From assembly GCA_905147135.1 (NCBI GenBank), contig LR990044.1, positions 20,467,622 to 20,531,621 on the forward strand: a stretch of DNA of 64,000 nt, read 5' to 3'. How positions within the stretch are numbered: the first letter of the stretch is position 1; each line of letters starts with the position of its first letter. The stretch is from Blastobasis lacticolella. Lineage: Eukaryota > Arthropoda > Insecta > Lepidoptera > Blastobasidae. A model generated the notes under the pieces. That model saw only the letters and a list, made by a program, of their open reading frames with translations, was not told the DNA's origin and searched no databases. A program made the translations under genes and the position numbers. Shown one piece after another: positions 1 to 59,128 of the stretch.

Positions 1-2
1 CT

Positions 3-1079
3 GAACAGCCTGAAGCGGCCGCGCCCGTGCCGCCCGCCGCCCACCTGCGCGCGGCGGCTCCGAAGCAGCAGCAGCAGTCGTCGCCGCAGCATGGGATGGT
101 CGGCTACCTATCCAACATGCCGATGCAGGTGTATCTGGTCCCGCAGTATTATAACGAGCCAGCGGAACAGGCGGCCAATCCTCAAGCCGCCGCCGTGCAG
201 TTCATTCCATCAGTACCGTCCGTTCCTCGCGCCGCTTACGCTCCACCCGAGATGTTGCATCAGAACTATATAGAAGTACCGGGGTACGTGTCCCCTAACG
301 GGAAAGCGTTCATCCAGCAGTACTCAGCTCCGATTACGTATGTGTACACTCAGCCGACAGCGGCGCCGCAAGCCACGGTCCCCAGTCCCATGGTGGCGTA
401 CCAAATGCCTCTAGTCCAGTACCCAACCAATCTGGCGGCACCCCCGGTCGTACACAAAGGCTACTACGACAACACAAGATATACAGACACGAACACAGTC
501 GACGACGTCCACGAAGAGGAGGAACCGGCGAAGCATTACCTGCCCCAGCCGGATACGTCGTACGGGAAACCGCCAGTGGCGGAATACCCTCGCTACTACA
601 ACTCCAGGAATCCAATAAGGGAAGACTACAAGCCGGTTTCTGAGTTGCCTCCTCCAAATCCTTTAGTACTCAAAAATCCTCCGCCTCATCTCGCTCATTT
701 GCCTAAAGCGTTACCTATGTATAGGCCGTTGTCGAAAGCGGTGTACACGGCTGGAGGCGGCAACTTTATCTCCTCAGCATATAACCCAAGGCCGAACGAG
801 CAATATGGAGCACCCAAACGACGGCCAACGTCTTTGTTGGATTCTTACGTCCCATCTGGACTCCAAGTAGAATATCTTAAGAGAGGTTATTCCAAAGATC
901 CATTGGTCGTGTACGATGCACTGGCCAATGGCAGACATTTCTCTCACATAAACCAACCAATAGCAAGGCATTACGAGAGGGGATTCCTCCCCAATCAGAT
1001 GTATCACACAGCGGCAGGAGGAATCACATTCGGACATTACAAAAGGGCACCAAAGGCAGAGAAAGTACACCAGAAATGA
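3..1079 (+). CDS. 3' terminal exon of a Pro/Tyr/Ala-rich, probably secreted or cuticular protein (5' partial)
   Basis: The frame is open from base 3, so the coding sequence enters from the left edge and ends at a TGA at 1077-1079. About 358 codons are visible. The product is of low complexity. Its first part is Ala/Pro/Gln rich with a short poly-Gln run near 66-77. The middle has many Tyr-Val and Pro-Tyr pairs and one acidic patch (DDVHEEEE). The C-terminal third is basic, ending near KRAPKAEKVHQK. I see no enzymatic domain, Cys motif or chitin-binding R&R signature. Such composition is common in insect extracellular-matrix and cuticle proteins, so that role is inferred from composition only. 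No signal peptide can be judged because the N-terminus is missing. The 5' part is GC rich (codons ending in C or G) compared with its flank. That the visible part is one exon is inferred from the absence of a convincing intron. Confidence 0.8.
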   Translation, partial: EQPEAAAPVPPAAHLRAAAPKQQQQSSPQHGMVGYLSNMPMQVYLVPQYYNEPAEQAANPQAAAVQFIPSVPSVPRAAYAPPEMLHQNYIEVPGYVSPNGKAFIQQYSAPITYVYTQPTAAPQATVPSPMVAYQMPLVQYPTNLAAPPVVHKGYYDNTRYTDTNTVDDVHEEEEPAKHYLPQPDTSYGKPPVAEYPRYYNSRNPIREDYKPVSELPPPNPLVLKNPPPHLAHLPKALPMYRPLSKAVYTAGGGNFISSAYNPRPNEQYGAPKRRPTSLLDSYVPSGLQVEYLKRGYSKDPLVVYDALANGRHFSHINQPIARHYERGFLPNQMYHTAAGGITFGHYKRAPKAEKVHQK

Positions 1080-1713
1080 GTTAGGAATAGTACCCATATG
1101 TATAAGAAGAATTTTATGCGAAACATGTTTTTGCGTTGAAGAGCAAAATGAAGCGAAATGTAGTTGTAATAAAATATTGAGAAATTTAAGTTTCTTTGTT
1201 GTATAAATAGAAATAATTAGTAATTACTTGAAAATATCGCGGATAAATAACAAATTAATAAACGATAAAAAGTTAGTTACTTCTTTAATGCAATCACGAC
1301 ACGCGCAATTCTTGTAGATATTGTTTCCTTAGGTTAAGTTTAGTCGAATGTATGTTTGTTTAGTTATTTATTAAGTGTTAAAACAAACGAGGATAAGTCT
1401 ACAAAATTGTTACAAATTAGAACGGTCAGTATTTTACATAAATTGTTACTTATAAATAAAACTGTTGTTAACAAAAAAATTTAATGAAAATTATTTCTCT
1501 CATTGCTATGTAATGAAAATAGACATGATCAACAAATCCAACGTCGATTTTGAACCTATCCTTTGCCATAAAGTGCATAATACTTGGCAGGCGTTGGAGA
1601 TCGCTGTTTTCAAAAGATCCATTAGAAAATGTTGCCTAGAGTCAAGCATAAAACTACAGATGTCAGATTCACATCGGCTAGTTCACTTTCGTAGACCATC
1701 TCTCTGTCGCACG
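1080..1713 (+). other. 3' UTR and downstream flank of the left-edge gene
   Basis: AT-rich non-coding DNA after the stop codon. Three AATAAA polyadenylation hexamers are visible at 1168-1173, 1257-1262 and 1455-1460; the first, about 90 bp after the stop, is the simplest choice. The 86-codon open frame at 1465-1725 runs across the repeat boundary and is not a convincing gene. The stretch ends where the macrosatellite starts. Confidence 0.6.
1168..1173 (+). terminator. Polyadenylation signal AATAAA
   Basis: Canonical hexamer about 90 bp after the TGA at 1077-1079, in an AT-rich setting. It is the likely cleavage signal of the left-edge gene. Alternatives at 1257 and 1455 cannot be excluded. 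Confidence 0.5.
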
Positions 1714-3188
1714 TGTCAGCTTTAATATAAGTCCTACTTATAACTACAGTGTCTTTCATAAGTAAAACCTTTATTTTAGTCATTAGGCTACAGGATAATA
1801 ACAGTGTGAGTATGTATCCAAAATCCCAGTGAAATATATGGACAACGATGATGATGAAGTATCCAAGGCTGATATTTGTGTAGGAGTTTACTAAAAAATA
1901 TATTATCTAGGATAACGTATGATTCTAGTGGACATCATTTAATCAAACAAATGTTTTAAAGATATTAGGTATATTGTAATAAGCAATATAATCCATTATA
2001 AAATGAGGTATTTATTTAAACAACATTAGCTGAATTAAACAAGATTTTATAATACAAACCAAGTGCCATAGGCAAACCACATTTATACAAAATTCTCACC
2101 AAATGTTAAGACACAATTATCGATCACATAATTCAATATTTATCCATTAAAATGGGACAGTAGTATTACGTATGATTCAATAAATAAACAATTATATAAA
2201 TAAATTAACCAATACAAAATATAAAGCAACAATAATACAATGCAAGTTTGTACTTAACTCTGTGCCGGCTCTGGAGCAAAAGTCCCACCCAGTCTTTTGA
2301 CTGGACCTTTATACTACCTTCTAGCCGGAAATGTCATTTCTATTCTCATTTCCGGTATCTTAAATTTACTGATAGATTGATTAGATGTTAATTTTAATGT
2401 ATTACAATACTTTTAACATTATTTAACATTAGTATAAATTTATTACATAATTAATTAAGGAAGTTTCTCATAAACAGTACTTAACTGATCAAAGACAAAC
2501 AATTGTTCAGAAACACCACACTTCATTCTGAAGTTGGTAAAATGTTTACAAAAGTATTTTGAAATAGTAATTATTATTAATCACGATATTTAATACCAAT
2601 TAAAACATACTATAATACCTTATATCTAACACGGCCATACTGACAAGTACTTCGTCCCTGAAGTACCTATTTATATCAAACTTAGGACAAATTTCCATTG
2701 TGAATCAAATAATAATTAACATTTGGTGTCATTTACTTATTTAAAACGACTTAAAATATTATACCACAAATAGGTAAGTTGACTACCAAATTCATTCAGA
2801 ATTTCAGAATATAATAACTTCTTCCAATGCCACAAATAATTCAATCACAAACCAGCAAAGTATAAAAATCATATCAGTTATCAGCTTTTATAACCATTAA
2901 AATATATTGCAGTTATTTTTATTGTGCACATTTGTAAATAACCAAATACTGGTCTGTACTTTCAAAGTCATTTGTCCCGTCATGCCAATTTCCTCACCAG
3001 TGCACCGGCACCACCGGTCTCACCGGAGAACCAGATTAGCATCGTCTATGGGACTAGCAACACTTTTTTTATCAATGTAACCTTCAATGCTGAATTATTA
3101 AATATTATTCTCGAGATTTCAGAATTATAGCCAAGTTCAAATATAGTCATGAAGAATCGCATTACAATATTATTATTTGGTTTGAGTA

Positions 3189-3613
3189 GTGACCTGTAAT
3201 GATGGCCCCATCACCGCCGCCCGTGATACAATGGCCAAACATCAGGATTACTACCTAGCACAGCTAAGTTTCGGTAGACGCATAGAGATGTTGGCAGCGT
3301 CACTGCTGCCTGGTGAAGGTCGTCTTGCCAACATCAAGCTAACTACCTAGACAGCAAAGTTCAGTATAAGCCTCCAGGTGTTGGCTGCAATCACCGCTGC
3401 CCGTGAAGCCAAAGCCACACCAAGCTAAATACCTAGCAGCAATATTCAGTAGTAGCCTTCCAGGTATGGTCCCATCACTGCTGCCCGAGAAATGGACTTA
3501 ACCAAGCTCACTACCTAGCAGCAACGTTCAGTATAAGCATCCAGGTGCTGGCTGCAATCACCGCTGCCCGTGAAGCCAAAGCCACACCAAGCTTACTACC
3601 TAGCAGCCATATT
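3189..3613 (+). repeat. Internal minisatellite of unit 1 (five diverged 84-91 bp repeats)
   Basis: Five degenerate repeats, each built on the core TCACCGCTGCCCG (or TCACTGCTGCC), followed by a CAAGCTAACTACCTAGCAGC-like segment. Cores start at 3211, 3300, 3391, 3475 and 3558, giving spacings of 89, 91, 84 and 83 bp. The block is GC richer than the rest of the unit. Its members differ from one another far more than the long units do, so the minisatellite predates the large-scale amplification. Confidence 0.85.
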
Positions 3614-5660
3614 GTAACACGGTTTCCCACAGCTGGATTCAAACAATCTATATAATCATATCATAATTGGCATTTTTCAATTATAGAAAGTTCAAGTTAT
3701 CATTTCACTTTTACTTCTATTTATCGAATTATTTACTTAATACATGTGACTGAATAACTGGTGGCATTTCAAAACTTGTACATCATTAGCATGATTTTCT
3801 ATAAAATATTATACACAAAATTTCTTCGAATAATTACGAATGATGAAATAATTCAAACTAGCATAGCATCTTCAATAGCGTTGTTCTTATAGACCCACAT
3901 CGCAATTTATACCTATAATATTTATCTATCACCAAAATATCAATTCAAATAATATTGGTTAATGAAATGGAATACATCACAGGTACAGAGACGATTTTTA
4001 TAGTACCTTATTAGTAATTACTTCAATTTCTACTTGGACGGGAATCGAATCCACTGTGCTACTGAAATAGCATATTATTAACGATACGGTCAGCAGACAA
4101 GAAAATAGAAAATGTAAATCATGTTATTGTAGGTACATACGTTTTCAATTTGCTCGGCCAATTCTGACGTTTTATTTCGAGACTACTAGCGGTAGATAAT
4201 CCGAATATAGTATATGGAAACAAAGGTAGGCAAACATTATTTTTAAATACGAATCGTGTCTATGTAGGTACTTTAATGAATAGCTTGAATTGAATATTTA
4301 TTGTATGGTAAAAGTTTGTTGAAATAAAAATAAAGTAAACAAAATAAATATTTTGCGTTAAGCCAGGTATCCACCGATCAAAAACTTGTGTTGTCAACAC
4401 GTGTTGATAACAAAATGTCCTTTAGGCGGAGAAGCGCCTTTATGCAACGTCAAATTTTTCGTCAAGAAATTTAATGGATTATTTATGATTTTTCTCAATT
4501 TCCTATCATGAACATTATGATTTAAGTAGCTAGTTGATTTAGGACCAAAAATTGCTAAACGTAATAAAGTATTATAACGGTACAACCTTGGATTATATTT
4601 ACTGTGCCGACCCTATGTCATATAGAAATGATTTTATATAAATATTTTCCATCACTTATTTTTCGGCTGGGTTGGGCCACCTTGTAAAATAGCTACCAAG
4701 CTACTCGTGAGTTACGAGTAAAGGCGGGAATTATAACGAAAATTTAAGTATTTACGGGATATAACGTAAAAAGAATATTTATAATGAATTGTGTCTAAAG
4801 GGCAATAAATGAGAAGTTTCGTAATATTCAACTGATGTATCCTTGGTGGGGCCAAGGTACGTACTGAAATAAGATTTTGACCTGTTATCAATAATCCAAT
4901 ATTAATAATAATGTAAACCTATATAAAATTTTAGTGATTTCTAAAGATATGCAACATGTTGCAACATGTTAAGTATTCTTGAGAGGAAACATAAATTTTC
5001 TCGTAAATTATGGACAATTGCTAAAACAACACTTTCATTGGAAACTGTGGAGCAGAAGCTTCGAAAAATTGTCTCATAAACATCAACCCAAACATAGTTC
5101 AATGTTGGAAGGTGGAATCTACATTTCCATCCAGTCAATGATTTTAATATTTTCCAATGTGGGTAACCGGTATGTTACGTTTACATCTTATGTTAAAGGC
5201 GGTTAATATCGGTTATTTCTTTTTAAACAAGACTAATTTTTGGATTGACTGAGTAGAAATGCGAAGACTACCTACAATAATGGAAAATAAATATGTGTTT
5301 TCATTTTCGATAAACTAGGTCCAATTATTACAAGTAGGTACTAAAGCTGCCTATCATATAAATATACCCATCCAAATTTACGGGAATATAAAGTTTCCGA
5401 TGTTCTTTAACTTAATATTTTTAAAACTTAGCAAGTTTTCATCGGTCAACCGCACAGAATTTTAATTTTTTTTTGTCTAGCTACCAACAAGAAATTTTTT
5501 TGAAACATTTTACTTTCGTTAACGTAGTTTTTGGCATGGAAAAGAAGGTTAAACAATTATGATGTGGTCTTTCTTTGCTAATTGAGGATGCTATTCTCAT
5601 ATAAATGTTTTGCATTTCTAAAAATATTATAATAAAAGCGGCGTTTTATATCTCGATGTA

Positions 5661-5965
5661 GTGACGCTCGACGTGCAAGAAACAATTCGTGATTCCATAG
5701 TGTCCAGGATTTGTGCCATAGTGGATGCAGAAGTCACCGACATAGTTTCCACAAGTTTCAAAACTAAAGTGGCAGTGGGCAGGCCACAAAATTTCATAGG
5801 ACCGATGGCCGATGGGGCACAAAGGTCTCTGAATGGGGATCACGTACCGGAAATTATAGTGTAAAACAGCCCCAGGAGATAGACGGAGCTGGTGGATGTA
5901 AGGGCACCAAGCCGATCGTTGCGGAAGGCCAGGAGGAGGAGTCTATGTCCAGCAGTGAATGTCCT
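5661..5965 (+). pseudogene. Decayed RTE-type LINE 3' end inside unit 1
   Basis: Aligns by eye with the better-preserved RTE copy at 22616-23105: shared stretches are CACCGACATAG, AAGTGGCAGTGGGCA, GATGGCCGATGGGGCA and CACGTACCGG, and the distal part resembles the RTE C-terminal codons for DRSL...EEVYVQQ (terminal motif GEAYAQQW in the intact copy). Frameshifts and stops leave no continuous frame. The open frames here on both strands are by-products. The fragment is the 3' part of an endonuclease-reverse transcriptase gene, so it is dead. Confidence 0.75.
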
Positions 5966-6275
5966 GGCGACCGAGATGTTCAGATACAGAACCGGTCGGG
6001 GTGTTACCTGCCATGGCAGCTTTGGTGACGCTGTTCCGGGGACGATTTCAACCAGGATCTGCAAAGCTCTTGACAGCAACGGTCCGCGAAGACAGCACAG
6101 CACATTTCCTTTGGTTCTTCGGTCTCTCGATCCCTCCGACGTCGATTGGTCGTTCCGAACACCGTCGTCGTCGATTTGCAAGATGCCTCGTGGAATAGTC
6201 TCGTCCATTACGCAGAATCTCTGAAAAATAGTGATTTTTATATCGATATCAAGAGTTAACGAATCCCACTTCTGA
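5966..6275. other. GC-richer unidentified end segment of unit 1
   Basis: About 310 bp after the RTE relic, GC richer than the rest of the unit and open in several frames on both strands. One plus-strand frame reads LQDASWNSLVHYAESLKNS and closes with TAA just before the unit junction. I do not recognise it. It could be another transposon piece or the remnant of a host exon. The same segment recurs in units 2, 3 and 4. Confidence 0.4.
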
Positions 6276-7750
6276 TGTCAGCTTTAATATAAGTCCTACT
6301 TATAACTACAGTGTCTTTCATTAGTAAAACCTTTATTTTAGTCATTAGGCTACAGGATAATAACAGTGTGAGTATGTATCCAAAATCCCAGTGAAATATA
6401 TGGACAACGATGATGATGAAGTATCCAAGGCTGATATTTGTGTAGGAGTTTACTAAAAAATATATTATCTAGGATAACGTATGATTCTAGTGGACATCAT
6501 TTAATCAAACAAATGTTTTAAAGATATTAGGTATATTGTAATAAGCAATATAATCCATTATAAAATGAGGTATTTATTTAAACAACATTAGCTGAATTAA
6601 ACAAGATTTTATAATACAAACCAAGTGCCATAGGCAAACCACATTTATACAAAATTCTCACCAAATGTTAAGACACAATTATCGATCACATAATTCAATA
6701 TTTATCCATTAAAATGGGACAGTAGTATTACGTATGATTCAATAAATAAACAATTATATAAATAAATTAACCAATACAAAATATAAAGCAACAATAATAC
6801 AATGCAAGTTTGTACTTAACTCTGTGCCGGCTCTGGAGCAAAAGTCCCACCCAGTCTTTTGACTGGACCTTTATACTACCTTCTAGCCGGAAATGTCATT
6901 TCTATTCTCATTTCCGGTATCTTAAATTTACTGATAGATTGATTAGATGTTAATTTTAATGTATTACAATACTTTTAACATTATTTAACATTAGTATAAA
7001 TTTATTACATAATTAATTAAGGAAGTTTCTCATAAACAGTACTTAACTGATCAAAGACAAACAATTGTTCAGAAACACCACACTTCATTCTGAAGTTGGT
7101 AAAATGTTTACAAAAGTATTTTGAAATAGTAATTATTATTAATCACGATATTTAATACCAATTAAAACATACTATAATACCTTATATCTAACACGGCCAT
7201 ACTGACAAGTACTTCGTCCCTGAAGTACCTATTTATATCAAACTTAGGACAAATTTCCATTGTGAATCAAATAATAATTAACATTTGGTGTCATTTACTT
7301 ATTTAAAACGACTTAAAATATTATACCACAAATAGGTAAGTTGACTACCAAATTCATTCAGAATTTCAGAATATAATAACTTCTTCCAATGCCACAAATA
7401 ATTCAATCACAAACCAGCAAAGTATAAAAATCATATCAGTTATCAGCTTTTATAACCATTAAAATATATTGCAGTTATTTTTATTGTGCACATTTGTAAA
7501 TAACCAAATACTGGTCTGTACTTTCAAAGTCATTTGTCCCGTCATGCCAATTTCCTCACCAGTGCACCGGCACCACCGGTCTCACCGGAGAACCAGATTA
7601 GCATCGTCTATGGGACTAGCAACACTTTTTTTATCAATGTAACCTTCAATGCTGAATTATTAAATATTATTCTCGAGATTTCAGAATTATAGCCAAGTTC
7701 AAATATAGTCATGAAGAATCGCATTACAATATTATTATTTGGTTTGAGTA

Positions 7751-8175
7751 GTGACCTGTAATGATGGCCCCATCACCGCCGCCCGTGATACAATGGCCAA
7801 ACATCAGGATTACTACCTAGCACAGCTAAGTTTCGGTAGACGCATAGAGATGTTGGCAGCGTCACTGCTGCCTGGTGAAGGTCGTCTTGCCAACATCAAG
7901 CTAACTACCTAGACAGCAAAGTTCAGTATAAGCCTCCAGGTGTTGGCTGCAATCACCGCTGCCCGTGAAGCCAAAGCCACACCAAGCTAAATACCTAGCA
8001 GCAATATTCAGTAGTAGCCTTCCAGGTATGGTCCCATCACTGCTGCCCGAGAAATGGACTTAACCAAGCTCACTACCTAGCAGCAACGTTCAGTATAAGC
8101 ATCCAGGTGCTGGCTGCAATCACCGCTGCCCGTGAAGCCAAAGCCACACCAAGCTTACTACCTAGCAGCCATATT
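7751..8175 (+). repeat. Internal minisatellite of unit 2
   Basis: Same five-repeat block as at 3189-3613, shifted by exactly 4562 bp, with no difference seen. Confidence 0.85.
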
Positions 8176-10222
8176 GTAACACGGTTTCCCACAGCTGGAT
8201 TCAAACAATCTATATAATCATATCATAATTGGCATTTTTCAATTATAGAAAGTTCAAGTTATCATTTCACTTTTACTTCTATTTATCGAATTATTTACTT
8301 AATACATGTGACTGAATAACTGGTGGCATTTCAAAACTTGTACATCATTAGCATGATTTTCTATAAAATATTATACACAAAATTTCTTCGAATAATTACG
8401 AATGATGAAATAATTCAAACTAGCATAGCATCTTCAATAGCGTTGTTCTTATAGACCCACATCGCAATTTATACCTATAATATTTATCTATCACCAAAAT
8501 ATCAATTCAAATAATATTGGTTAATGAAATGGAATACATCACAGGTACAGAGACGATTTTTATAGTACCTTATTAGTAATTACTTCAATTTCTACTTGGA
8601 CGGGAATCGAATCCACTGTGCTACTGAAATAGCATATTATTAACGATACGGTCAGCAGACAAGAAAATAGAAAATGTAAATCATGTTATTGTAGGTACAT
8701 ACGTTTTCAATTTGCTCGGCCAATTCTGACGTTTTATTTCGAGACTACTAGCGGTAGATAATCCGAATATAGTATATGGAAACAAAGGTAGGCAAACATT
8801 ATTTTTAAATACGAATCGTGTCTATGTAGGTACTTTAATGAATAGCTTGAATTGAATATTTATTGTATGGTAAAAGTTTGTTGAAATAAAAATAAAGTAA
8901 ACAAAATAAATATTTTGCGTTAAGCCAGGTATCCACCGATCAAAAACTTGTGTTGTCAACACGTGTTGATAACAAAATGTCCTTTAGGCGGAGAAGCGCC
9001 TTTATGCAACGTCAAATTTTTCGTCAAGAAATTTAATGGATTATTTATGATTTTTCTCAATTTCCTATCATGAACATTATGATTTAAGTAGCTAGTTGAT
9101 TTAGGACCAAAAATTGCTAAACGTAATAAAGTATTATAACGGTACAACCTTGGATTATATTTACTGTGCCGACCCTATGTCATATAGAAATGATTTTATA
9201 TAAATATTTTCCATCACTTATTTTTCGGCTGGGTTGGGCCACCTTGTAAAATAGCTACCAAGCTACTCGTGAGTTACGAGTAAAGGCGGGAATTATAACG
9301 AAAATTTAAGTATTTACGGGATATAACGTAAAAAGAATATTTATAATGAATTGTGTCTAAAGGGCAATAAATGAGAAGTTTCGTAATATTCAACTGATGT
9401 ATCCTTGGTGGGGCCAAGGTACGTACTGAAATAAGATTTTGACCTGTTATCAATAATCCAATATTAATAATAATGTAAACCTATATAAAATTTTAGTGAT
9501 TTCTAAAGATATGCAACATGTTGCAACATGTTAAGTATTCTTGAGAGGAAACATAAATTTTCTCGTAAATTATGGACAATTGCTAAAACAACACTTTCAT
9601 TGGAAACTGTGGAGCAGAAGCTTCGAAAAATTGTCTCATAAACATCAACCCAAACATAGTTCAATGTTGGAAGGTGGAATCTACATTTCCATCCAGTCAA
9701 TGATTTTAATATTTTCCAATGTGGGTAACCGGTATGTTACGTTTACATCTTATGTTAAAGGCGGTTAATATCGGTTATTTCTTTTTAAACAAGACTAATT
9801 TTTGGATTGACTGAGTAGAAATGCGAAGACTACCTACAATAATGGAAAATAAATATGTGTTTTCATTTTCGATAAACTAGGTCCAATTATTACAAGTAGG
9901 TACTAAAGCTGCCTATCATATAAATATACCCATCCAAATTTACGGGAATATAAAGTTTCCGATGTTCTTTAACTTAATATTTTTAAAACTTAGCAAGTTT
10001 TCATCGGTCAACCGCACAGAATTTTAATTTTTTTTTGTCTAGCTACCAACAAGAAATTTTTTTGAAACATTTTACTTTCGTTAACGTAGTTTTTGGCATG
10101 GAAAAGAAGGTTAAACAATTATGATGTGGTCTTTCTTTGCTAATTGAGGATGCTATTCTCATATAAATGTTTTGCATTTCTAAAAATATTATAATAAAAG
10201 CGGCGTTTTATATCTCGATGTA

Positions 10223-10527
10223 GTGACGCTCGACGTGCAAGAAACAATTCGTGATTCCATAGTGTCCAGGATTTGTGCCATAGTGGATGCAGAAGTCACC
10301 GACATAGTTTCCACAAGTTTCAAAACTAAAGTGGCAGTGGGCAGGCCACAAAATTTCATAGGACCGATGGCCGATGGGGCACAAAGGTCTCTGAATGGGG
10401 ATCACGTACCGGAAATTATAGTGTAAAACAGCCCCAGGAGATAGACGGAGCTGGTGGATGTAAGGGCACCAAGCCGATCGTTGCGGAAGGCCAGGAGGAG
10501 GAGTCTATGTCCAGCAGTGAATGTCCT
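10223..10527 (+). pseudogene. Decayed RTE 3' end inside unit 2
   Basis: Copy of the relic at 5661-5965, carrying the same frameshifts. It was therefore already dead when the unit amplified. Confidence 0.75.
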
Positions 10528-12312
10528 GGCGACCGAGATGTTCAGATACAGAACCGGTCGGGGTGTTACCTGCCATGGCAGCTTTGGTGACGCTGTTCCG
10601 GGGACGATTTCAACCAGGATCTGCAAAGCTCTTGACAGCAACGGTCCGCGAAGACAGCACAGCACATTTCCTTTGGTTCTTCGGTCTCTCGATCCCTCCG
10701 ACGTCGATTGGTCGTTCCGAACACCGTCGTCGTCGATTTGCAAGATGCCTCGTGGAATAGTCTCGTCCATTACGCAGAATCTCTGAAAAATAGTGATTTT
10801 TATATCGATATCAAGAGTTAACGAATCCCACTTCTGATGTCAGCTTTAATATAAGTCCTACTTATAACTACAGTGTCTTTCATTAGTAAAACCTTTATTT
10901 TAGTCATTAGGCTACAGGATAATAACAGTGTGAGTATGTATCCAAAATCCCAGTGAAATATATGGACAACGATGATGATGAAGTATCCAAGGCTGATATT
11001 TGTGTAGGAGTTTACTAAAAAATATATTATCTAGGATAACGTATGATTCTAGTGGACATCATTTAATCAAACAAATGTTTTAAAGATATTAGGTATATTG
11101 TAATAAGCAATATAATCCATTATAAAATGAGGTATTTATTTAAACAACATTAGCTGAATTAAACAAGATTTTATAATACAAACCAAGTGCCATAGGCAAA
11201 CCACATTTATACAAAATTCTCACCAAATGTTAAGACACAATTATCGATCACATAATTCAATATTTATCCATTAAAATGGGACAGTAGTATTACGTATGAT
11301 TCAATAAATAAACAATTATATAAATAAATTAACCAATACAAAATATAAAGCAACAATAATACAATGCAAGTTTGTACTTAACTCTGTGCCGGCTCTGGAG
11401 CAAAAGTCCCACCCAGTCTTTTGACTGGACCTTTATACTACCTTCTAGCCGGAAATGTCATTTCTATTCTCATTTCCGGTATCTTAAATTTACTGATAGA
11501 TTGATTAGATGTTAATTTTAATGTATTACAATACTTTTAACATTATTTAACATTAGTATAAATTTATTACATAATTAATTAAGGAAGTTTCTCATAAACA
11601 GTACTTAACTGATCAAAGACAAACAATTGTTCAGAAACACCACACTTCATTCTGAAGTTGGTAAAATGTTTACAAAAGTATTTTGAAATAGTAATTATTA
11701 TTAATCACGATATTTAATACCAATTAAAACATACTATAATACCTTATATCTAACACGGCCATACTGACAAGTACTTCGTCCCTGAAGTACCTATTTATAT
11801 CAAACTTAGGACAAATTTCCATTGTGAATCAAATAATAATTAACATTTGGTGTCATTTACTTATTTAAAACGACTTAAAATATTATACCACAAATAGGTA
11901 AGTTGACTACCAAATTCATTCAGAATTTCAGAATATAATAACTTCTTCCAATGCCACAAATAATTCAATCACAAACCAGCAAAGTATAAAAATCATATCA
12001 GTTATCAGCTTTTATAACCATTAAAATATATTGCAGTTATTTTTATTGTGCACATTTGTAAATAACCAAATACTGGTCTGTACTTTCAAAGTCATTTGTC
12101 CCGTCATGCCAATTTCCTCACCAGTGCACCGGCACCACCGGTCTCACCGGAGAACCAGATTAGCATCGTCTATGGGACTAGCAACACTTTTTTTATCAAT
12201 GTAACCTTCAATGCTGAATTATTAAATATTATTCTCGAGATTTCAGAATTATAGCCAAGTTCAAATATAGTCATGAAGAATCGCATTACAATATTATTAT
12301 TTGGTTTGAGTA

Positions 12313-12737
12313 GTGACCTGTAATGATGGCCCCATCACCGCCGCCCGTGATACAATGGCCAAACATCAGGATTACTACCTAGCACAGCTAAGTTTCGGTA
12401 GACGCATAGAGATGTTGGCAGCGTCACTGCTGCCTGGTGAAGGTCGTCTTGCCAACATCAAGCTAACTACCTAGACAGCAAAGTTCAGTATAAGCCTCCA
12501 GGTGTTGGCTGCAATCACCGCTGCCCGTGAAGCCAAAGCCACACCAAGCTAAATACCTAGCAGCAATATTCAGTAGTAGCCTTCCAGGTATGGTCCCATC
12601 ACTGCTGCCCGAGAAATGGACTTAACCAAGCTCACTACCTAGCAGCAACGTTCAGTATAAGCATCCAGGTGCTGGCTGCAATCACCGCTGCCCGTGAAGC
12701 CAAAGCCACACCAAGCTTACTACCTAGCAGCCATATT
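12313..12737 (+). repeat. Internal minisatellite of unit 3
   Basis: Same block as at 3189-3613, offset by 9124 bp. Confidence 0.85.
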
Positions 12738-14784
12738 GTAACACGGTTTCCCACAGCTGGATTCAAACAATCTATATAATCATATCATAATTGGCATTTT
12801 TCAATTATAGAAAGTTCAAGTTATCATTTCACTTTTACTTCTATTTATCGAATTATTTACTTAATACATGTGACTGAATAACTGGTGGCATTTCAAAACT
12901 TGTACATCATTAGCATGATTTTCTATAAAATATTATACACAAAATTTCTTCGAATAATTACGAATGATGAAATAATTCAAACTAGCATAGCATCTTCAAT
13001 AGCGTTGTTCTTATAGACCCACATCGCAATTTATACCTATAATATTTATCTATCACCAAAATATCAATTCAAATAATATTGGTTAATGAAATGGAATACA
13101 TCACAGGTACAGAGACGATTTTTATAGTACCTTATTAGTAATTACTTCAATTTCTACTTGGACGGGAATCGAATCCACTGTGCTACTGAAATAGCATATT
13201 ATTAACGATACGGTCAGCAGACAAGAAAATAGAAAATGTAAATCATGTTATTGTAGGTACATACGTTTTCAATTTGCTCGGCCAATTCTGACGTTTTATT
13301 TCGAGACTACTAGCGGTAGATAATCCGAATATAGTATATGGAAACAAAGGTAGGCAAACATTATTTTTAAATACGAATCGTGTCTATGTAGGTACTTTAA
13401 TGAATAGCTTGAATTGAATATTTATTGTATGGTAAAAGTTTGTTGAAATAAAAATAAAGTAAACAAAATAAATATTTTGCGTTAAGCCAGGTATCCACCG
13501 ATCAAAAACTTGTGTTGTCAACACGTGTTGATAACAAAATGTCCTTTAGGCGGAGAAGCGCCTTTATGCAACGTCAAATTTTTCGTCAAGAAATTTAATG
13601 GATTATTTATGATTTTTCTCAATTTCCTATCATGAACATTATGATTTAAGTAGCTAGTTGATTTAGGACCAAAAATTGCTAAACGTAATAAAGTATTATA
13701 ACGGTACAACCTTGGATTATATTTACTGTGCCGACCCTATGTCATATAGAAATGATTTTATATAAATATTTTCCATCACTTATTTTTCGGCTGGGTTGGG
13801 CCACCTTGTAAAATAGCTACCAAGCTACTCGTGAGTTACGAGTAAAGGCGGGAATTATAACGAAAATTTAAGTATTTACGGGATATAACGTAAAAAGAAT
13901 ATTTATAATGAATTGTGTCTAAAGGGCAATAAATGAGAAGTTTCGTAATATTCAACTGATGTATCCTTGGTGGGGCCAAGGTACGTACTGAAATAAGATT
14001 TTGACCTGTTATCAATAATCCAATATTAATAATAATGTAAACCTATATAAAATTTTAGTGATTTCTAAAGATATGCAACATGTTGCAACATGTTAAGTAT
14101 TCTTGAGAGGAAACATAAATTTTCTCGTAAATTATGGACAATTGCTAAAACAACACTTTCATTGGAAACTGTGGAGCAGAAGCTTCGAAAAATTGTCTCA
14201 TAAACATCAACCCAAACATAGTTCAATGTTGGAAGGTGGAATCTACATTTCCATCCAGTCAATGATTTTAATATTTTCCAATGTGGGTAACCGGTATGTT
14301 ACGTTTACATCTTATGTTAAAGGCGGTTAATATCGGTTATTTCTTTTTAAACAAGACTAATTTTTGGATTGACTGAGTAGAAATGCGAAGACTACCTACA
14401 ATAATGGAAAATAAATATGTGTTTTCATTTTCGATAAACTAGGTCCAATTATTACAAGTAGGTACTAAAGCTGCCTATCATATAAATATACCCATCCAAA
14501 TTTACGGGAATATAAAGTTTCCGATGTTCTTTAACTTAATATTTTTAAAACTTAGCAAGTTTTCATCGGTCAACCGCACAGAATTTTAATTTTTTTTTGT
14601 CTAGCTACCAACAAGAAATTTTTTTGAAACATTTTACTTTCGTTAACGTAGTTTTTGGCATGGAAAAGAAGGTTAAACAATTATGATGTGGTCTTTCTTT
14701 GCTAATTGAGGATGCTATTCTCATATAAATGTTTTGCATTTCTAAAAATATTATAATAAAAGCGGCGTTTTATATCTCGATGTA

Positions 14785-15089
14785 GTGACGCTCGACGTGC
14801 AAGAAACAATTCGTGATTCCATAGTGTCCAGGATTTGTGCCATAGTGGATGCAGAAGTCACCGACATAGTTTCCACAAGTTTCAAAACTAAAGTGGCAGT
14901 GGGCAGGCCACAAAATTTCATAGGACCGATGGCCGATGGGGCACAAAGGTCTCTGAATGGGGATCACGTACCGGAAATTATAGTGTAAAACAGCCCCAGG
15001 AGATAGACGGAGCTGGTGGATGTAAGGGCACCAAGCCGATCGTTGCGGAAGGCCAGGAGGAGGAGTCTATGTCCAGCAGTGAATGTCCT
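14785..15089 (+). pseudogene. Decayed RTE 3' end inside unit 3
   Basis: Copy of the relic at 5661-5965 with the same lesions. Confidence 0.75.
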
Positions 15090-16872
15090 GGCGACCGAGA
15101 TGTTCAGATACAGAACCGGTCGGGGTGTTACCTGCCATGGCAGCTTTGGTGACGCTGTTCCGGGGACGATTTCAACCAGGATCTGCAAAGCTCTTGACAG
15201 CAACGGTCCGCGAAGACAGCACAGCACATTTCCTTTGGTTCTTCGGTCTCTCGATCCCTCCGACGTCGATTGGTCGTTCCGAACACCGTCGTCGTCGATT
15301 TGCAAGATGCCTCGTGGAATAGTCTCGTCCATTACGCAGAATCTCTGAAAAATAGTGATTTTTATATCGATATCAAGAGTTAACGAATCCCACTTCTGAT
15401 GTCAGCTTTAATATAAGTCCTACTTATAACTACAGTGTCTTTCATTAGTAAAACCTTTATTTTAGTCATTAGGCTACAGGATAATAACAGTGTGAGTATG
15501 TATCCAAAATCCCAGTGAAATATATGGACAACGATGATGATGAAGTATCCAAGGCTGATATTTGTGTAGGAGTTTACTAAAAAATATATTATCTAGGATA
15601 ACGTATGATTCTAGTGGACATCATTTAATCAAACAAATGTTTTAAAGATATTAGGTATATTGTAATAAGCAATATAATCCATTATAAAATGAGGTATTTA
15701 TTTAAACAACATTAGCTGAATTAAACAAGATTTTATAATACAAACCAAGTGCCATAGGCAAACCACATTTATACAAAATTCTCACCAAATGTTAAGACAC
15801 AATTATCGATCACATAATTCAATATTTATCCATTAAAATGGGACAGTAGTATTACGTATGATTCAATAAATAAACAATTATATAAATAAATTAACCAATA
15901 CAAAATATAAAGCAACAATAATACAATGCAAGTTTGTACTTAACTCTGTGCCGGCTCTGGAGCAAAAGTCCCACCCAGTCTTTTGACTGGACCTTTATAC
16001 TACCTTCTAGCCGGAAATGTCATTTCTATTCTCATTTCCGGTATCTTAAATTTACTGATAGATTGATTAGATGTTAATTTTAATGTATTACAATACTTTT
16101 AACATTATTTAACATTAGTATAAATTTATTACATAATTAATTAAGGAAGTTTCATATACAGTACTTAACTGATCAAAGACAAACAATTGTTCAGAAACAC
16201 CACACTTCATTCTGAAGTTGGTAAAATGTTTACAAAAGTATTTTGAAATAGTAATTATTATTAATCACGATATTTAATACCAATTAAAACATACTATAAT
16301 ACCTTATATCTAACACGGCCATACTGACAAGTACTTCGTCCCTGAAGTACCTATTTATATCAAACTTAGGACAAATTTCCATTGTGAATCAAATAATAAT
16401 TAACATTTGGTGTCATTTACTTATTTAAAACGACTTAAAATATTATACCACAAATAGGTAAGTTGACTACCAAATTCATTCAGAATTTCAGAATATAATA
16501 ACTTCTTCCAATGCCACAAATAATTCAATCACAAACCAGCAAAGTATAAAAATCATATCAGTTATCAGCTTTTATAACCATTAAAATATATTGCAGTTAT
16601 TTTTATTGTGCACATTTGTAAATAACCAAATACTGGTCTGTACTTTCAAAGTCATTTGTCCCGTCATGCCAATTTCCTCACCAGTGCACCGGCACCACCG
16701 GTCTCACCGGAGAACCAGATTAGCATCGTCTATGGGACTAGCAACACTTTTTTTATCAATGTAACCTTCAATGCTGAATTATTAAATATTATTCTCGAGA
16801 TTTCAGAATTATAGCCAAGTTCAAATATAGTCATGAAGAATCGCATTACAATATTATTATTTGGTTTGAGTA

Positions 16873-17297
16873 GTGACCTGTAATGATGGCCCCATCACCG
16901 CCGCCCGTGATACAATGGCCAAACATCAGGATTACTACCTAGCACAGCTAAGTTTCGGTAGACGCATAGAGATGTTGGCAGCGTCACTGCTGCCTGGTGA
17001 AGGTCGTCTTGCCAACATCAAGCTAACTACCTAGACAGCAAAGTTCAGTATAAGCCTCCAGGTGTTGGCTGCAATCACCGCTGCCCGTGAAGCCAAAGCC
17101 ACACCAAGCTAAATACCTAGCAGCAATATTCAGTAGTAGCCTTCCAGGTATGGTCCCATCACTGCTGCCCGAGAAATGGACTTAACCAAGCTCACTACCT
17201 AGCAGCAACGTTCAGTATAAGCATCCAGGTGCTGGCTGCAATCACCGCTGCCCGTGAAGCCAAAGCCACACCAAGCTTACTACCTAGCAGCCATATT
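16873..17297 (+). repeat. Internal minisatellite of unit 4
   Basis: Same block as at 3189-3613, displaced 13684 bp because of the 2-bp loss upstream. Confidence 0.85.
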
Positions 17298-19344
17298 GTA
17301 ACACGGTTTCCCACAGCTGGATTCAAACAATCTATATAATCATATCATAATTGGCATTTTTCAATTATAGAAAGTTCAAGTTATCATTTCACTTTTACTT
17401 CTATTTATCGAATTATTTACTTAATACATGTGACTGAATAACTGGTGGCATTTCAAAACTTGTACATCATTAGCATGATTTTCTATAAAATATTATACAC
17501 AAAATTTCTTCGAATAATTACGAATGATGAAATAATTCAAACTAGCATAGCATCTTCAATAGCGTTGTTCTTATAGACCCACATCGCAATTTATACCTAT
17601 AATATTTATCTATCACCAAAATATCAATTCAAATAATATTGGTTAATGAAATGGAATACATCACAGGTACAGAGACGATTTTTATAGTACCTTATTAGTA
17701 ATTACTTCAATTTCTACTTGGACGGGAATCGAATCCACTGTGCTACTGAAATAGCATATTATTAACGATACGGTCAGCAGACAAGAAAATAGAAAATGTA
17801 AATCATGTTATTGTAGGTACATACGTTTTCAATTTGCTCGGCCAATTCTGACGTTTTATTTCGAGACTACTAGCGGTAGATAATCCGAATATAGTATATG
17901 GAAACAAAGGTAGGCAAACATTATTTTTAAATACGAATCGTGTCTATGTAGGTACTTTAATGAATAGCTTGAATTGAATATTTATTGTATGGTAAAAGTT
18001 TGTTGAAATAAAAATAAAGTAAACAAAATAAATATTTTGCGTTAAGCCAGGTATCCACCGATCAAAAACTTGTGTTGTCAACACGTGTTGATAACAAAAT
18101 GTCCTTTAGGCGGAGAAGCGCCTTTATGCAACGTCAAATTTTTCGTCAAGAAATTTAATGGATTATTTATGATTTTTCTCAATTTCCTATCATGAACATT
18201 ATGATTTAAGTAGCTAGTTGATTTAGGACCAAAAATTGCTAAACGTAATAAAGTATTATAACGGTACAACCTTGGATTATATTTACTGTGCCGACCCTAT
18301 GTCATATAGAAATGATTTTATATAAATATTTTCCATCACTTATTTTTCGGCTGGGTTGGGCCACCTTGTAAAATAGCTACCAAGCTACTCGTGAGTTACG
18401 AGTAAAGGCGGGAATTATAACGAAAATTTAAGTATTTACGGGATATAACGTAAAAAGAATATTTATAATGAATTGTGTCTAAAGGGCAATAAATGAGAAG
18501 TTTCGTAATATTCAACTGATGTATCCTTGGTGGGGCCAAGGTACGTACTGAAATAAGATTTTGACCTGTTATCAATAATCCAATATTAATAATAATGTAA
18601 ACCTATATAAAATTTTAGTGATTTCTAAAGATATGCAACATGTTGCAACATGTTAAGTATTCTTGAGAGGAAACATAAATTTTCTCGTAAATTATGGACA
18701 ATTGCTAAAACAACACTTTCATTGGAAACTGTGGAGCAGAAGCTTCGAAAAATTGTCTCATAAACATCAACCCAAACATAGTTCAATGTTGGAAGGTGGA
18801 ATCTACATTTCCATCCAGTCAATGATTTTAATATTTTCCAATGTGGGTAACCGGTATGTTACGTTTACATCTTATGTTAAAGGCGGTTAATATCGGTTAT
18901 TTCTTTTTAAACAAGACTAATTTTTGGATTGACTGAGTAGAAATGCGAAGACTACCTACAATAATGGAAAATAAATATGTGTTTTCATTTTCGATAAACT
19001 AGGTCCAATTATTACAAGTAGGTACTAAAGCTGCCTATCATATAAATATACCCATCCAAATTTACGGGAATATAAAGTTTCCGATGTTCTTTAACTTAAT
19101 ATTTTTAAAACTTAGCAAGTTTTCATCGGTCAACCGCACAGAATTTTAATTTTTTTTTGTCTAGCTACCAACAAGAAATTTTTTTGAAACATTTTACTTT
19201 CGTTAACGTAGTTTTTGACATGGAAAAGAAGGTTAAACAATTATGATGTGGTCTTTCTTTGCTAATTGAGGATGCTATTCTCATATAAATGTTTTGCATT
19301 TCTAAAAATATTATAATAAAAGCGGCGTTTTATATCTCGATGTA

Positions 19345-19649
19345 GTGACGCTCGACGTGCAAGAAACAATTCGTGATTCCATAGTGTCCAGGATTTGTGC
19401 CATAGTGGATGCAGAAGTCACCGACATAGTTTCCACAAGTTTCAAAACTAAAGTGGCAGTGGGCAGGCCACAAAATTTCATAGGACCGATGGCCGATGGG
19501 GCACAAAGGTCTCTGAATGGGGATCACGTACCGGAAATTATAGTGTAAAACAGCCCCAGGAGATAGACGGAGCTGGTGGATGTAAGGGCACCAAGCCGAT
19601 CGTTGCGGAAGGCCAGGAGGAGGAGTCTATGTCCAGCAGTGAATGTCCT
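19345..19649 (+). pseudogene. Decayed RTE 3' end inside unit 4
   Basis: Copy of the relic at 5661-5965 with the same lesions. Confidence 0.75.
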
Positions 19650-19959
19650 GGCGACCGAGATGTTCAGATACAGAACCGGTCGGGGTGTTACCTGCCATGG
19701 CAGCTTTGGTGACGCTGTTCCGGGGACGATTTCAACCAGGATCTGCAAAGCTCTTGACAGCAACGGTCCGCGAAGACAGCACAGCACATTTCCTTTGGTT
19801 CTTCGGTCTCTCGATCCCTCCGACGTCGATTGGTCGTTCCGAACACCGTCGTCGTCGATTTGCAAGATGCCTCGTGGAATAGTCTCGTCCATTACGCAGA
19901 ATCTCTGAAAAATAGTGATTTTTATATCGATATCAAGAGTTAACGAATCCCACTTCTGA

Positions 19960-20878
19960 TGTCAGCTTTAATATAAGTCCTACTTATAACTACAGTGTCT
20001 TTCATTAGTAAAACCTTTATTTTAGTCATTAGGCTACAGGATAATAACAGTGTGAGTATGTATCCAAAATCCCAGTGAAATATATGGACAACGATGATGA
20101 TGAAGTATCCAAGGCTGATATTTGTGTAGGAGTTTACTAAAAAATATATTATCTAGGATAACGTATGATTCTAGTGGACATCATTTAATCAAACAAATGT
20201 TTTAAAGATATTAGGTATATTGTAATAAGCAATATAATCCATTATAAAATGAGGTATTTATTTAAACAACATTAGCTGAATTAAACAAGATTTTATAATA
20301 CAAACCAAGTGCCATAGGCAAACCACATTTATACAAAATTCTCACCAAATGTTAAGACACAATTATCGATCACATAATTCAATATTTATCCATTAAAATG
20401 GGACAGTAGTATTACGTATGATTCAATAAATAAACAATTATATAAATAAATTAACCAATACAAAATATAAAGCAACAATAATACAATGCAAGTTTGTACT
20501 TAACTCTGTGCCGGCTCTGGAGCAAAAGTCCCACCCAGTCTTTTGACTGGACCTTTATACTACCTTCTAGCCGGAAATGTCATTTCTATTCTCATTTCCG
20601 GTATCTTAAATTTACTGATAGATTGATTAGATGTTAATTTTAATGTATTACAATACTTTTAACATTATTTAACATTAGTATAAATTTATTACATAATTAA
20701 TTAAGGAAGTTTCTCATAAACAGTACTTAACTGATCAAAGACAAACAATTGTTCAGAAACACCACACTTCATTCTGAAGTTGGTAAAATGTTTACAAAAG
20801 TATTTTGAAATAGTAATTATTATTAATCACGATATTTAATACCAATTAAAACATACTATAATACCTTATATCTAACAC
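19960..20878 (+). repeat. Partial fifth macrosatellite copy (first 919 bp)
   Basis: Follows the unit sequence from TGTCAGC to TCTAACAC, then breaks at 20878 into unrelated sequence starting ACGCGTGTGAG. It carries T at the position matching 1760 and the undeleted form of the 16152 variant. Confidence 0.92.
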
Positions 20879-21026
20879 ACGCGTGTGAGTAAATACGAAG
20901 CCAAAACTGGCGTAATTGTATTATTTATCGCCGACTAGCGTGCCTTCATCATCATCGTTGCCTTCAGCGGCTGCCTGTACCTAAAATTGGGTATTAGATT
21001 TAAAATCTAATTTATTCTAAATTGGT

Positions 21027-22615: not shown

Positions 22616-23105
22616 TATTTTCGTCCCAATTACCGCAGTGTCTCAAGACGAAGGTCTTTGACTAATGTGTGTTGCCAGTGATGACGTACGGAACTGAAAC
22701 GTGGCCACTCACTATGGGCCTTATAAGAAAGCTCACTGTTACCCAAAGGGCAGTGGAAAGAGCTATGCTCGGAGTTTCTTTGCGCGATCGAGACAGAAAT
22801 GAGGAGATCCGCAAGCGAACCAAGGTTCACCGACATAGCTCTAAGGATTGCCAGACTGAAGTGGCAGTGGGCAAGGCACATAGCTCGAAGAACAGATGGC
22901 CGATGGGGCAGTAAAGTTCTCGAGTGGCGACCACGTACCGGTAGACGCAGCATAGGTAGGCCTCCTACAAGGTGGACCGACGACCTGGTAAGGATCGCAG
23001 GTACCAGCTGGATGCGGAAAGCACAGGACCGGTCTTTGTGGAGATCTCTGGGGGAGGCCTATGCCCAGCAGTGGGCGTCTTCTGGCTGATATGATGATGA
23101 TGATG
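22616..23105 (+). mobile_element. 5'-truncated RTE-type LINE insertion
   Basis: A 490-bp 3' end of an endonuclease-reverse transcriptase element. In reading order it encodes FSSQLPQCLKTKVFD, an in-frame TAA, CVLPVMTYGTETWPL, MLGVSLRDRDRNEEIRKRT, then after a frameshift near 22827 ARLKWQWARHIARRTDGRW, GRPPTRWTDDLVRIAG and DRSLWRSLGEAYAQQW, with a stop at 23087-23089. It ends in a short GAT repeat tail, as RTE elements do. The 15-bp TSD flanks it exactly. One premature stop and one frameshift make the copy dead. It is the best local relative of the relic inside each macrosatellite unit. Confidence 0.88.
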
Positions 23106-34134: not shown

Positions 34135-35235
34135 CATTTATTTATTAAATTTATTACATTATTCTGCTATTATGAAATTACAATTTACAATTATACAATA
34201 TATAATTACAAACTAAAACTACATATAATTAAAAACCTTAAAATTACTTAAATAGGTAAAAAATTTGCCCCAAGTCCCCTGAATACGGAAAAGTCCCCAG
34301 AAGGCTGGCCGCGTTGCCCCGCTGGATGGCGAGGCTTATACGCTGTCCCAAATAGAGGCCAGCCTTCTGGTCCTTACTAATGTCGACCAGGCGCTTGGCT
34401 AGTTCCCTATATAGGGAATGTGCGCCTGGTCCCCACGGCCCCAGAGTTTCCACGCCAAATGGCGCAAATATGTAGTCGCCACTGAGACATGCGTATTTGC
34501 GCCGTTTTGCGTTTTCAGCAGAGGCGGCACCGGCCCCTGCTTGACACGCAGTGGCTGGAAGATGGGACGACGCGAGGGTATCAATGCACGTAGCATCCCA
34601 GACCAAGGGCCGTCCCAGTTTCCAGGGCGTGAGTGTCATTCCGTCGGGTCTTTTCCCATTATCGCGGGCTAAACCGTTGGGTTCCAGCACTGCGGGAGCA
34701 CCAGCGGAGGCAAAGGCCCGACGGATGACATCATTGAGGTCCGCGTGGCGTGGAATGCGTCCGGCGCTCCTACTACACGACAAACCATGATGGCCGAGTT
34801 GGTCTACAGGGCGGCCACAGTGGCAGTCGTGTGGAGCGCTGCAGGGAGCTCCAAGACGTAGGGCCGTGGCAATCCTGAAAGTAGCACGGTCGAGCAAAGT
34901 GCCAATGTTTTTTGAAGGCATTGCCTGGAGCCAGAGGCCCGACTCCCACTCGCCAGCAGCTAGTAAGCGAGCACGCTTTGCAGAATTGGTAGTTGCGTTT
35001 AAAAGTTTGTTTCGCGCCAACCTACAGAGCGGCTCGTCCCATAGCCGCTGCGAATAAGAATTAGTGGGCTCTGCCTCCGGGCAAGCCAACTGCCACGCGA
35101 TTTTGGCCTCGGTAGAAAAAGCCGATGGAAAGGTCCCTAGTTTAGACAATAATTTATCCACTAGGGACTGCGAGCTGTGTACCGAGGACAAAAACGCTGG
35201 CAAGGACACACTAGACATTTTGCGAACGCCACATT
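34135..35235 (-). mobile_element. 5'-truncated retroelement with CCHC finger and PD-(D/E)xK-like endonuclease
   Basis: A 1101-bp minus-strand insertion. TATACTAATA occurs on both sides (34125-34134 and 35236-35245), a plausible 10-bp TSD. The minus-strand 3' end is AT rich with AATAAA-type signals and a TAAA-like tail. It carries one open reading frame (34244-35218) but no reverse transcriptase, so it is a 3' fragment of a longer element. Confidence 0.75.
34244..35218 (-). CDS. C-terminal domain of a retroelement polyprotein: CCHC knuckle plus restriction-like endonuclease
   Basis: 324 codons without interruption. Residues 132-148 form a C-x-C-x9-H-x3-C knuckle (CHCGRPVDQLGHHGLSC). Residues 189-210 read KRPDGMTLTPWKLGRPLVWD: the PD at 191-192 and D208 fit a PD-(D/E)xK nuclease core, as in the restriction-like endonucleases of R2/NeSL-type non-LTR elements. 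The end has QRISLAIQRGNAASLLGT, a segment I know from many arthropod proteins annotated as reverse-transcriptase related. The expected upstream reverse transcriptase is absent, and the first Met follows directly on the truncated edge, so the protein is not a full product. GC richer than its flanks. The clade is uncertain, because the motif spacing could also suit other RLE-bearing retroelements. Expression is not implied. Confidence 0.75.
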   Translation of the reverse strand: MSSVSLPAFLSSVHSSQSLVDKLLSKLGTFPSAFSTEAKIAWQLACPEAEPTNSYSQRLWDEPLCRLARNKLLNATTNSAKRARLLAAGEWESGLWLQAMPSKNIGTLLDRATFRIATALRLGAPCSAPHDCHCGRPVDQLGHHGLSCSRSAGRIPRHADLNDVIRRAFASAGAPAVLEPNGLARDNGKRPDGMTLTPWKLGRPLVWDATCIDTLASSHLPATACQAGAGAASAENAKRRKYACLSGDYIFAPFGVETLGPWGPGAHSLYRELAKRLVDISKDQKAGLYLGQRISLAIQRGNAASLLGTFPYSGDLGQIFYLFK

Positions 35236-35245
35236 TATACTAATA

Positions 35246-39400: not shown

Positions 39401-40526
39401 TGCAGGATAAAGAACATGACAATACTCATTGTGAAACAACTATATTGCAATGGAATAAAGCATAAGTTCGCGACTAACAAGTCTCACTATCCAAGCAATG
39501 AATTAGCAGTTTTTGTCTAAGTACGATACCGGTCGGTGTATTGACGAAATTGTAATAAAAGCGGTCAAGTGTGAGCTAAATACTTAACCTACTTGTAGGG
39601 AAAATAGAGTTTTGCAATTAAACTTTAGTTTTGTTATGTTCAATAGTTTTAATTTAAATTTTAGGAGAAGCTAACACATAATTATCCATTCTACTTCTTG
39701 AAAGTTTGATTAAATTTTATAAATAACTGTTTATTTATAGACACAACATTTTGAACATGTTTTCCTAAAAATCACAATATATAATAGAAAATAAAACAAA
39801 AAGATTGAAAACCTTAAACTAACTAACCTAGTTACTAAACTAAAGATAAAAAAATCTAAAACTACATTATCTCGTCCCAAAAGTTATAATAAAACTAGCA
39901 TTGCTTTAGTATTAAGCCTTTAACAAAAGTATGCCGTAGTTCCAAATGTTAAAATACTAAATTAATTAGCAATAAATACTGCCTTAATCATAAAGCGACA
40001 TCTTTTAACGAAACACGACGTACTTAAATATTTGGGCAACCACCGCGTACTCATGCGCATATAATATGCAAAAATGCTCGAAAGCGCCAGCCGCTACACT
40101 ATGTATGCTAACTTAGGGTGCATCCGATCGAGGAAAATTGAACAAGGTGCAACCGAACGTTGGTTGAATTACTGGCATAAAAATGAACTATCTAATAAAC
40201 AGATATATAAATAATGAACGGTTGTGTAACGGATATTTTGTTTATTATGGTTAGAAATTAAATTCAGAGTAAGAGTGAAATTATGTTAATGTTATTAGTT
40301 CAAATATTATTTTATAATTTAGTATTAGCATTATTTAATTTATTTCCGTCATGTAAATATTTCTTTTAAACATATCAAATTCAACATGTTTACCTAACTT
40401 ATGAAGCAATATAAAAATAAAAAATAAGTTATATTTGTACAATCAGAAATAGAATAATTAAATAAAACAAATTGTCATTCCGAACAACTTGAAAAATTTA
40501 AGCTAATAAATCTGCATCATCATATC
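39401..40526. other. Non-coding AT-rich stretch
   Basis: No gene, no clear repeat. Confidence 0.4.
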
Positions 40527-59111: not shown

Positions 59112-59128
59112 TATAATAAAGTGATAAA

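Follow-up and report, generated by a model that had tools for sequence, protein, structure and literature searches.

What is the 4.56-kb sequence that is repeated, almost without change, over 19 kb of contig LR990044.1 of the lepidopteran Blastobasis lacticolella? We analysed a stretch of 64,000 nucleotides that holds this array (positions 20,467,622 to 20,531,621 of the contig; hereafter the window, with position 1 as its first letter). An initial annotation had described the repeat as a macrosatellite of unknown type. That description is superseded by four features: the alternation of n interiors with n+1 long terminal repeats (LTRs), LTRs that run from TG to CA, one target-site duplication for the whole array, and primer binding sites complementary to the leucine transfer RNA (tRNA-Leu). 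The array is very probably a young tandem with the anatomy of an LTR retrotransposon.

Boundaries, repeats and target site

The array, as first delimited, spans positions 1714-20878. As the initial annotation had it, and as the unit alignment confirms, four full units lie head to tail, at 1714-6275, 6276-10837 and 10838-15399 (4562 bp each) and at 15400-19959 (4560 bp), followed by a fractional fifth copy at 19960-20878 (919 bp, or 918 bp once trimmed). The start given there stands, but the end does not: base 20878 matches the unit by chance and belongs to the target-site duplication, and the true end is 20877. Four units and 918 bp are the signature, n interiors and n+1 LTRs, of an LTR-retrotransposon tandem. 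Read on the minus strand, the order is LTR-interior-LTR-interior-LTR-interior-LTR-interior-LTR, with five LTRs, four interiors, and inner LTRs that are shared. The parts are as follows.

1710..1713, no strand: left target-site duplication, CACG, directly outside the array end
1714..2631, minus strand: LTR A, 918 bp, 3' LTR of the whole insertion in the element sense, with a private A at position 47
2632..6275, minus strand: internal region 1, 3644 bp, non-coding
6276..7193, minus strand: LTR B, 918 bp
7194..10837, minus strand: internal region 2, 3644 bp
10838..11755, minus strand: LTR C, 918 bp
11756..15399, minus strand: internal region 3, 3644 bp
15400..16315, minus strand: LTR D, 916 bp, with a 2-bp deletion and one substitution within 8 bp
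16316..19959, minus strand: internal region 4, 3644 bp, with one private substitution
19960..20877, minus strand: LTR E, 918 bp, 5' LTR of the whole insertion in the element sense
20878..20881, no strand: right target-site duplication, CACG, directly outside the array end

The LTRs begin with TGTTAG and end with CTGACA. These ends are imperfect inverted copies of each other (TGTTAG against TGTCAG), and both are kept in all five LTRs. They are 918 bp long, with one of 916 bp, have a G+C content of 27%, and are at least 99.5% alike. The left flank stops matching the unit at TG and the right flank stops at CA. The edges of the array therefore coincide with LTR ends, contrary to what is expected of a satellite of non-transposon origin. 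Directly outside both edges stands the 4-bp duplication CACG, and none is found at the junctions of the three inner LTRs, which argues against five independent nested insertions. The probability of such edges arising by chance was estimated from random edge pairs drawn from the window, for which TG, CA and a matching 4-bp flank were required. With one base of slack, as observed, it was 4.05e-5 in 2,000,000 pairs; with a slack of ±2 bp on both sides it was 5.2e-4 in 400,000 pairs.

On the minus strand the interior begins TCAGAAGTGGGATTCG, the first 16 nucleotides of which are complementary to tRNA-Leu. The match is complete (16/16) at all four LTR/interior junctions. On neither strand does the rest of the window hold another; the next best positions reach 13/16.

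6260..6275, minus strand: primer binding site, copy 1, 16-nt tRNA-Leu complement
10822..10837, minus strand: primer binding site, copy 2, 16-nt tRNA-Leu complement
15384..15399, minus strand: primer binding site, copy 3, 16-nt tRNA-Leu complement
19944..19959, minus strand: primer binding site, copy 4, 16-nt tRNA-Leu complement, adjoining the 5' LTR of the whole insertion

The tRNA-Leu sequence is borne out by the literature, where the string occurs in at least five papers; among these are a reverse primer for fly pre-tRNA-Leu-CAC and the tRNA-Leu-CAA reverse primer of a splenocyte study. With a primer site on the minus strand only, the plus strand was rejected as the element sense. A short interspersed nuclear element (SINE) was likewise rejected as the source of the match, which has acceptor-stem bases and ends inside the T loop. 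Its acceptor-stem bases set it apart from the tRNA-like stretches elsewhere in the window (AGTGGGATTCGAACC). These stretches resemble a tRNA T arm, lie at 26994 (minus), 30272 (plus) and 51887 (plus), and are probably tRNA-derived SINEs.

Identity to copy 1 ranges from 99.89 to 99.98% among copies 2-5. Not a base differs between units 2 and 3, nor among internal regions 1-3. Where three variant sites had been counted by eye, the alignment gives five variant columns, which we read as four mutational events over 19,164 bp:

unit position 47: A in the first LTR (LTR A), T in LTRs 2-5
unit positions 753-754, unit 4: 2-bp deletion
unit position 760, unit 4: A to T, within 8 bp together with the deletion at 753-754
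unit position 3821, unit 4: G to A

All four are private to one copy, and none is common to a subset of the copies. The earlier view of the repeat as a recent, near-identical head-to-tail array holds.

Interior of the element and its relatives

The interior is 3644 bp long with a G+C content of 36%. Two earlier statements about the unit hold: that it contains no intact gene, the longest stop-to-stop frame overlapping unit 2 being 145 residues, and that it is not ribosomal DNA (rDNA), 5S or small nuclear RNA (snRNA), since across the whole window Rfam gives 0 matches at gathering scores and ARAGORN (bacterial code) finds no tRNA. A repeat unit made of rDNA, 5S, snRNA or tRNA was rejected on these two results. 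One unit with its edges holds 54 frame pieces of at least 40 residues. Six of these belong to the following copy and duplicate frames already listed; the remaining 48 were scanned against Pfam. At E up to 0.05, three weak and unrelated matches resulted (E 0.026-0.042), among them Peroxidase_2 under its cut-off. For the longest minus-strand frame, of 144 residues and adjoining the primer site, none of 31 candidates reached E<=0.01. The unit was also rejected as a protein-coding or histone repeat, its best Pfam matches being at chance level. An interior in which no coding sequence can be recognised means that the element would be non-autonomous. A single-copy element would measure 5480 bp.

Two further features recur in each interior:

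3331..3613, no strand: 85-bp minisatellite, 3.4 copies, 74% matches, repeated at 7893-8175, 12455-12737 and 17015-17297
10296..10541, plus strand: pieces of an old 3' end of a long interspersed nuclear element (LINE), at the same place in the other three units

Within the minisatellite a 95-nt piece recurs 167 bp apart at 94%. The LINE pieces match other parts of the window at 68-80% (10296-10412 with 22827-22941, 10341-10414 with 41181-41109, and 10447-10541 with 44715-44812), and a weak match joins 7118-7192 to 39748-39823 (69%, E 0.002). By eye, a perfect 7-bp stem (GTACTTC/GAAGTAC) lies in 2632-2680, where a polypurine tract would be expected, and at the same place in the other units.

The combination of a tRNA-Leu site with a 4-bp duplication is reminiscent of insect Ty3/mdg3 elements and may point to an mdg3-like element, a likeness that we offer as a resemblance and not as a filing, because the unit holds no reverse transcriptase. 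In the table of Culex elements in PMC3286476, the one Mdg3 family shown uses tRNA-Leu and has 4-bp duplications in both of its listed copies, and two Mag elements with tRNA-Leu have 5-bp duplications. In Drosophila, Spoink is placed in the gypsy/mdg3 group; its duplication is given as 4 bp long, and its primer site as immediately following the LTR (PMC10965091). A polymerase chain reaction (PCR) primer given there for Spoink shares its first 13 bases, TCAGAAGTGGGAT, with the interior of the array, and would lie on the Spoink primer binding site. In contrast to the array, with its non-coding interior and 918-bp TG...CA LTRs, Spoink is reported to encode a gag-pol polyprotein and to have 349-bp TG...TA LTRs.

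By their description, the non-autonomous LTR elements of Culex (PMC3286476) resemble the array in being non-coding, in having a tRNA primer site and an interior minisatellite, and in size; cqUNK_12, for example, is listed as non-autonomous, with 5450 bp, tRNA-Leu, an 88-bp repeat and a 5-bp duplication. They differ in having a polypurine tract and mostly 5-bp duplications, whereas the array has no canonical tract and a duplication of 4 bp.

As to its organization, the array is a further case of a known type of structure, the tandem LTR-retrotransposon insertion, which according to PMC11899658 is known from plants and kangaroos, with Drosophila as a suggested further case. The rice and other plant insertions treated there share with it the alternation of LTRs and interiors, the shared inner LTRs, the one outer duplication and an origin in a single insertion. 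However, rice TLI1 is given as two elements with interiors 94% and LTRs 85-89% alike, whereas the array, in a lepidopteran host, has four non-coding interiors, and the likeness among its five LTRs is at least 99.5%. Cassandra, one of the terminal-repeat retrotransposons in miniature (TRIMs), is also a non-autonomous LTR element and is reported to form LTR/interior arrays of up to 12 repeats (PMC7215508). However, it is described as small with 5S-like LTRs, whereas here the unit is 4.56 kb, the LTRs are 918 bp, and there is no Rfam match. Transposon-derived tandems of animals include the kangaroo KERV megasatellite and the tandem transposon insertions of Drosophila (as cited in PMC11899658), as well as the invader4 array in the telomere-associated sequences (TAS) of Drosophila (PMC1794594). 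According to these sources the KERV arrays lie at centromeres, while the array of invader4 is subtelomeric, in contrast to the position beside a gene observed here. None of the matches listed in the literature on tandem LTR arrays, taken by their titles and the starts of their abstracts, was a tandem LTR array in Lepidoptera.

We also compared exact patterns with IMG/VR, in which a 21-mer has 0 matches, an 18-mer has 2 and a 15-mer has 61 (the two included). At none of the 61 sites did the 16 bp in front of the match recur exactly, although the loci are cut and a far copy could escape. We take these matches to be due to chance; the two longer ones lie in contigs with frames that look phage-like by eye.

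Several observations weigh against an LTR retrotransposon, or against the mdg3 likeness. No gag, pol or other retroelement Pfam family was found in the 48 frame pieces of the unit, so that the mdg3 likeness is one of short signals. Nor is there a canonical polypurine tract before the 3' LTR: the interior has no purine run of 10 or more, its last 60 nucleotides hold only AGGGA at -28, and its last 20 are 50% purine. We have for this reason filed the array as an LTR-retrotransposon-type insertion and do not claim that the element is complete or mobile. The tract may be an unusual one, or else the parent's 3' end had already changed when the array arose; the sequence is common to all four interiors. 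The last five bases of the tRNA (CACCA) have no partner in the primer binding site, in contrast to the Steamer elements of the clam, for which a complete Leu primer site, TGGTGTCAGAAG, is reported. The 4-bp duplication is not confined to Mdg3 in the Culex table (PMC3286476), where Mdg1 and Osvaldo, with other tRNAs, and one Mag element with tRNA-Ser also have it. Finally, the 64-kb window holds no second insertion of the element.

Proposed growth of the array and alternative origins

We propose that the array began with one integrase-type insertion of a non-coding LTR element, which would have depended in trans on proteins supplied by an autonomous relative. The tandem probably grew by homologous recombination between LTRs, either through unequal exchange between sister chromatids or through a one-LTR circle that recombined with the insertion. 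For rice and TRIM tandems, the published accounts consider both growth by recombination and insertion of a ready-made tandem; for the kangaroo arrays it is recombination that is considered. Such an array would behave as an unstable tandem that gains and loses 4.56-kb units, and the locus is plausibly variable in copy number. An empty site would join 1713 to 20882 with one CACG, reading ...GTCGCACG directly followed by CGTGTGAG.

The array appears to be young because only four mutational events have accumulated in 19,164 bp. The mutation rate of Heliconius is reported to be 2.9e-9 per site and generation, from which an age of roughly 70,000 generations would follow if all copies started identical. 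We propose no host function for the array.

It is possible, although we think it rather improbable, that the same element was made tandem before integration, as concatemeric complementary DNA (cDNA) or by read-through of a one-LTR circle, and was inserted in one step. One outer duplication with none inside would be expected from such an event, and each of the four mutational events is confined to a single copy, as if the copies had started identical together. A single tandem insertion is also what PMC11899658 argues for in rice, in a discussion that leaves both routes open. However, recent unequal exchange predicts the same pattern, and four events are too few to separate the routes. In addition, a cDNA of 19 kb would be large for a particle. 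Somewhat more doubtful is a fuller form of this scenario, in which a ready-made concatemer of four interiors and five LTRs (tandem cDNA or one-LTR-circle read-through), derived from a non-coding mdg3-type parasite primed by tRNA-Leu without its last five bases, would have created a retrotransposon-born satellite in one transposition, beside a gene in a holocentric genome.

The number of units could also have been inflated by the assembler, with fewer on the chromosome. The identity of interiors 1-3 and of units 2 and 3 means that their number cannot be proved from the sequence. However, private variants are present in LTR A and in LTR D with interior 4, and these, if real, mean that no fewer than two interiors and three LTRs exist. 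We regard such an expansion as unlikely, and it would leave the identity of the element unchanged.

A true macrosatellite, that is, an ordinary non-coding segment duplicated in tandem by end joining, slippage or rolling circle, would account for the head-to-tail near-identity, the want of retroelement coding sequence and the missing polypurine tract. It predicts no tie between the edges and TG...CA, the 4-bp duplication or the primer site. However, TG...CA with a 4-bp duplication arises by chance at only about 4e-5, the 16-nt tRNA match falls exactly at the phase set by the array edges, and the non-integral copy number is left unexplained. We consider this origin highly improbable. That the array is a source of Piwi-interacting RNA (piRNA) or long non-coding RNA is hardly to be expected either: young transposon arrays are plausible piRNA sources, and LTR B carries TATA-like and AATAAA motifs, but such motifs are expected at a G+C content of 27%.

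Read as an LTR-retrotransposon tandem that grew in place, the unexplained macrosatellite becomes a young and testable case of an LTR retrotransposon turning into a tandem array in a lepidopteran, and it may mark an early step from transposon to satellite DNA. The ends, the target site and the unit boundaries are known to the base, so that copy-number alleles, the empty site and the route of growth can be assayed directly. Other long 'satellites' with a fractional last copy should first be tested for the pattern of n interiors and n+1 LTRs. The non-canonical tRNA-Leu start, present in the array and, as it would seem, in a fly element of the mdg3 group, offers a small lead on the priming of reverse transcription. 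Overall, we consider the locus to be of moderate interest, as a sharply bounded, young array beside a gene in a lepidopteran.

Surroundings of the array

To the left of the array lies the 3' coding end of a gene (1-1079, plus strand; coding 3-1076, stop codon 1077-1079), which is conserved in Lepidoptera and has no Pfam match. A protein search with this coding part gave 72 relatives at E<=1e-3, at 44-66% identity, many of them unnamed or 'uncharacterized', and the best named relative is from Pectinophora gossypiella (65% identity). Every relative whose name includes an organism is from a lepidopteran, in keeping with the host. In the element sense the LTRs point left, to the 3' end of this gene, whose stop codon lies about 630 bp off, and transcription from the five LTRs, if any, would go leftwards into that end.

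On the right, a LINE 3' end at 22680-23100 (plus strand), which is related to the fragment in the array unit, runs into a GATGAT microsatellite tail (22827-23100 by eye) and may be of the sort that PMC2887409 reports for RTE elements of Lepidoptera. An open frame of 331 residues at 34244-35239 (minus strand) has no Pfam match at E<=0.1. At 53879-56728 (minus strand) there is an apparently intact, open LINE-type frame of 949 residues with endonuclease (PF03372) and reverse transcriptase (PF00078) domains. A 187-residue open frame at 59120-59683 (plus strand) resembles, by eye, the C-terminal portion of a reverse transcriptase of LINE type, with no Pfam match above cut-off. It is followed at 59884-60101 by a tandem repeat of about 218 bp that is TAGGG/TAGGGG-like, and that resembles, but differs from, the insect telomere repeat TTAGG.

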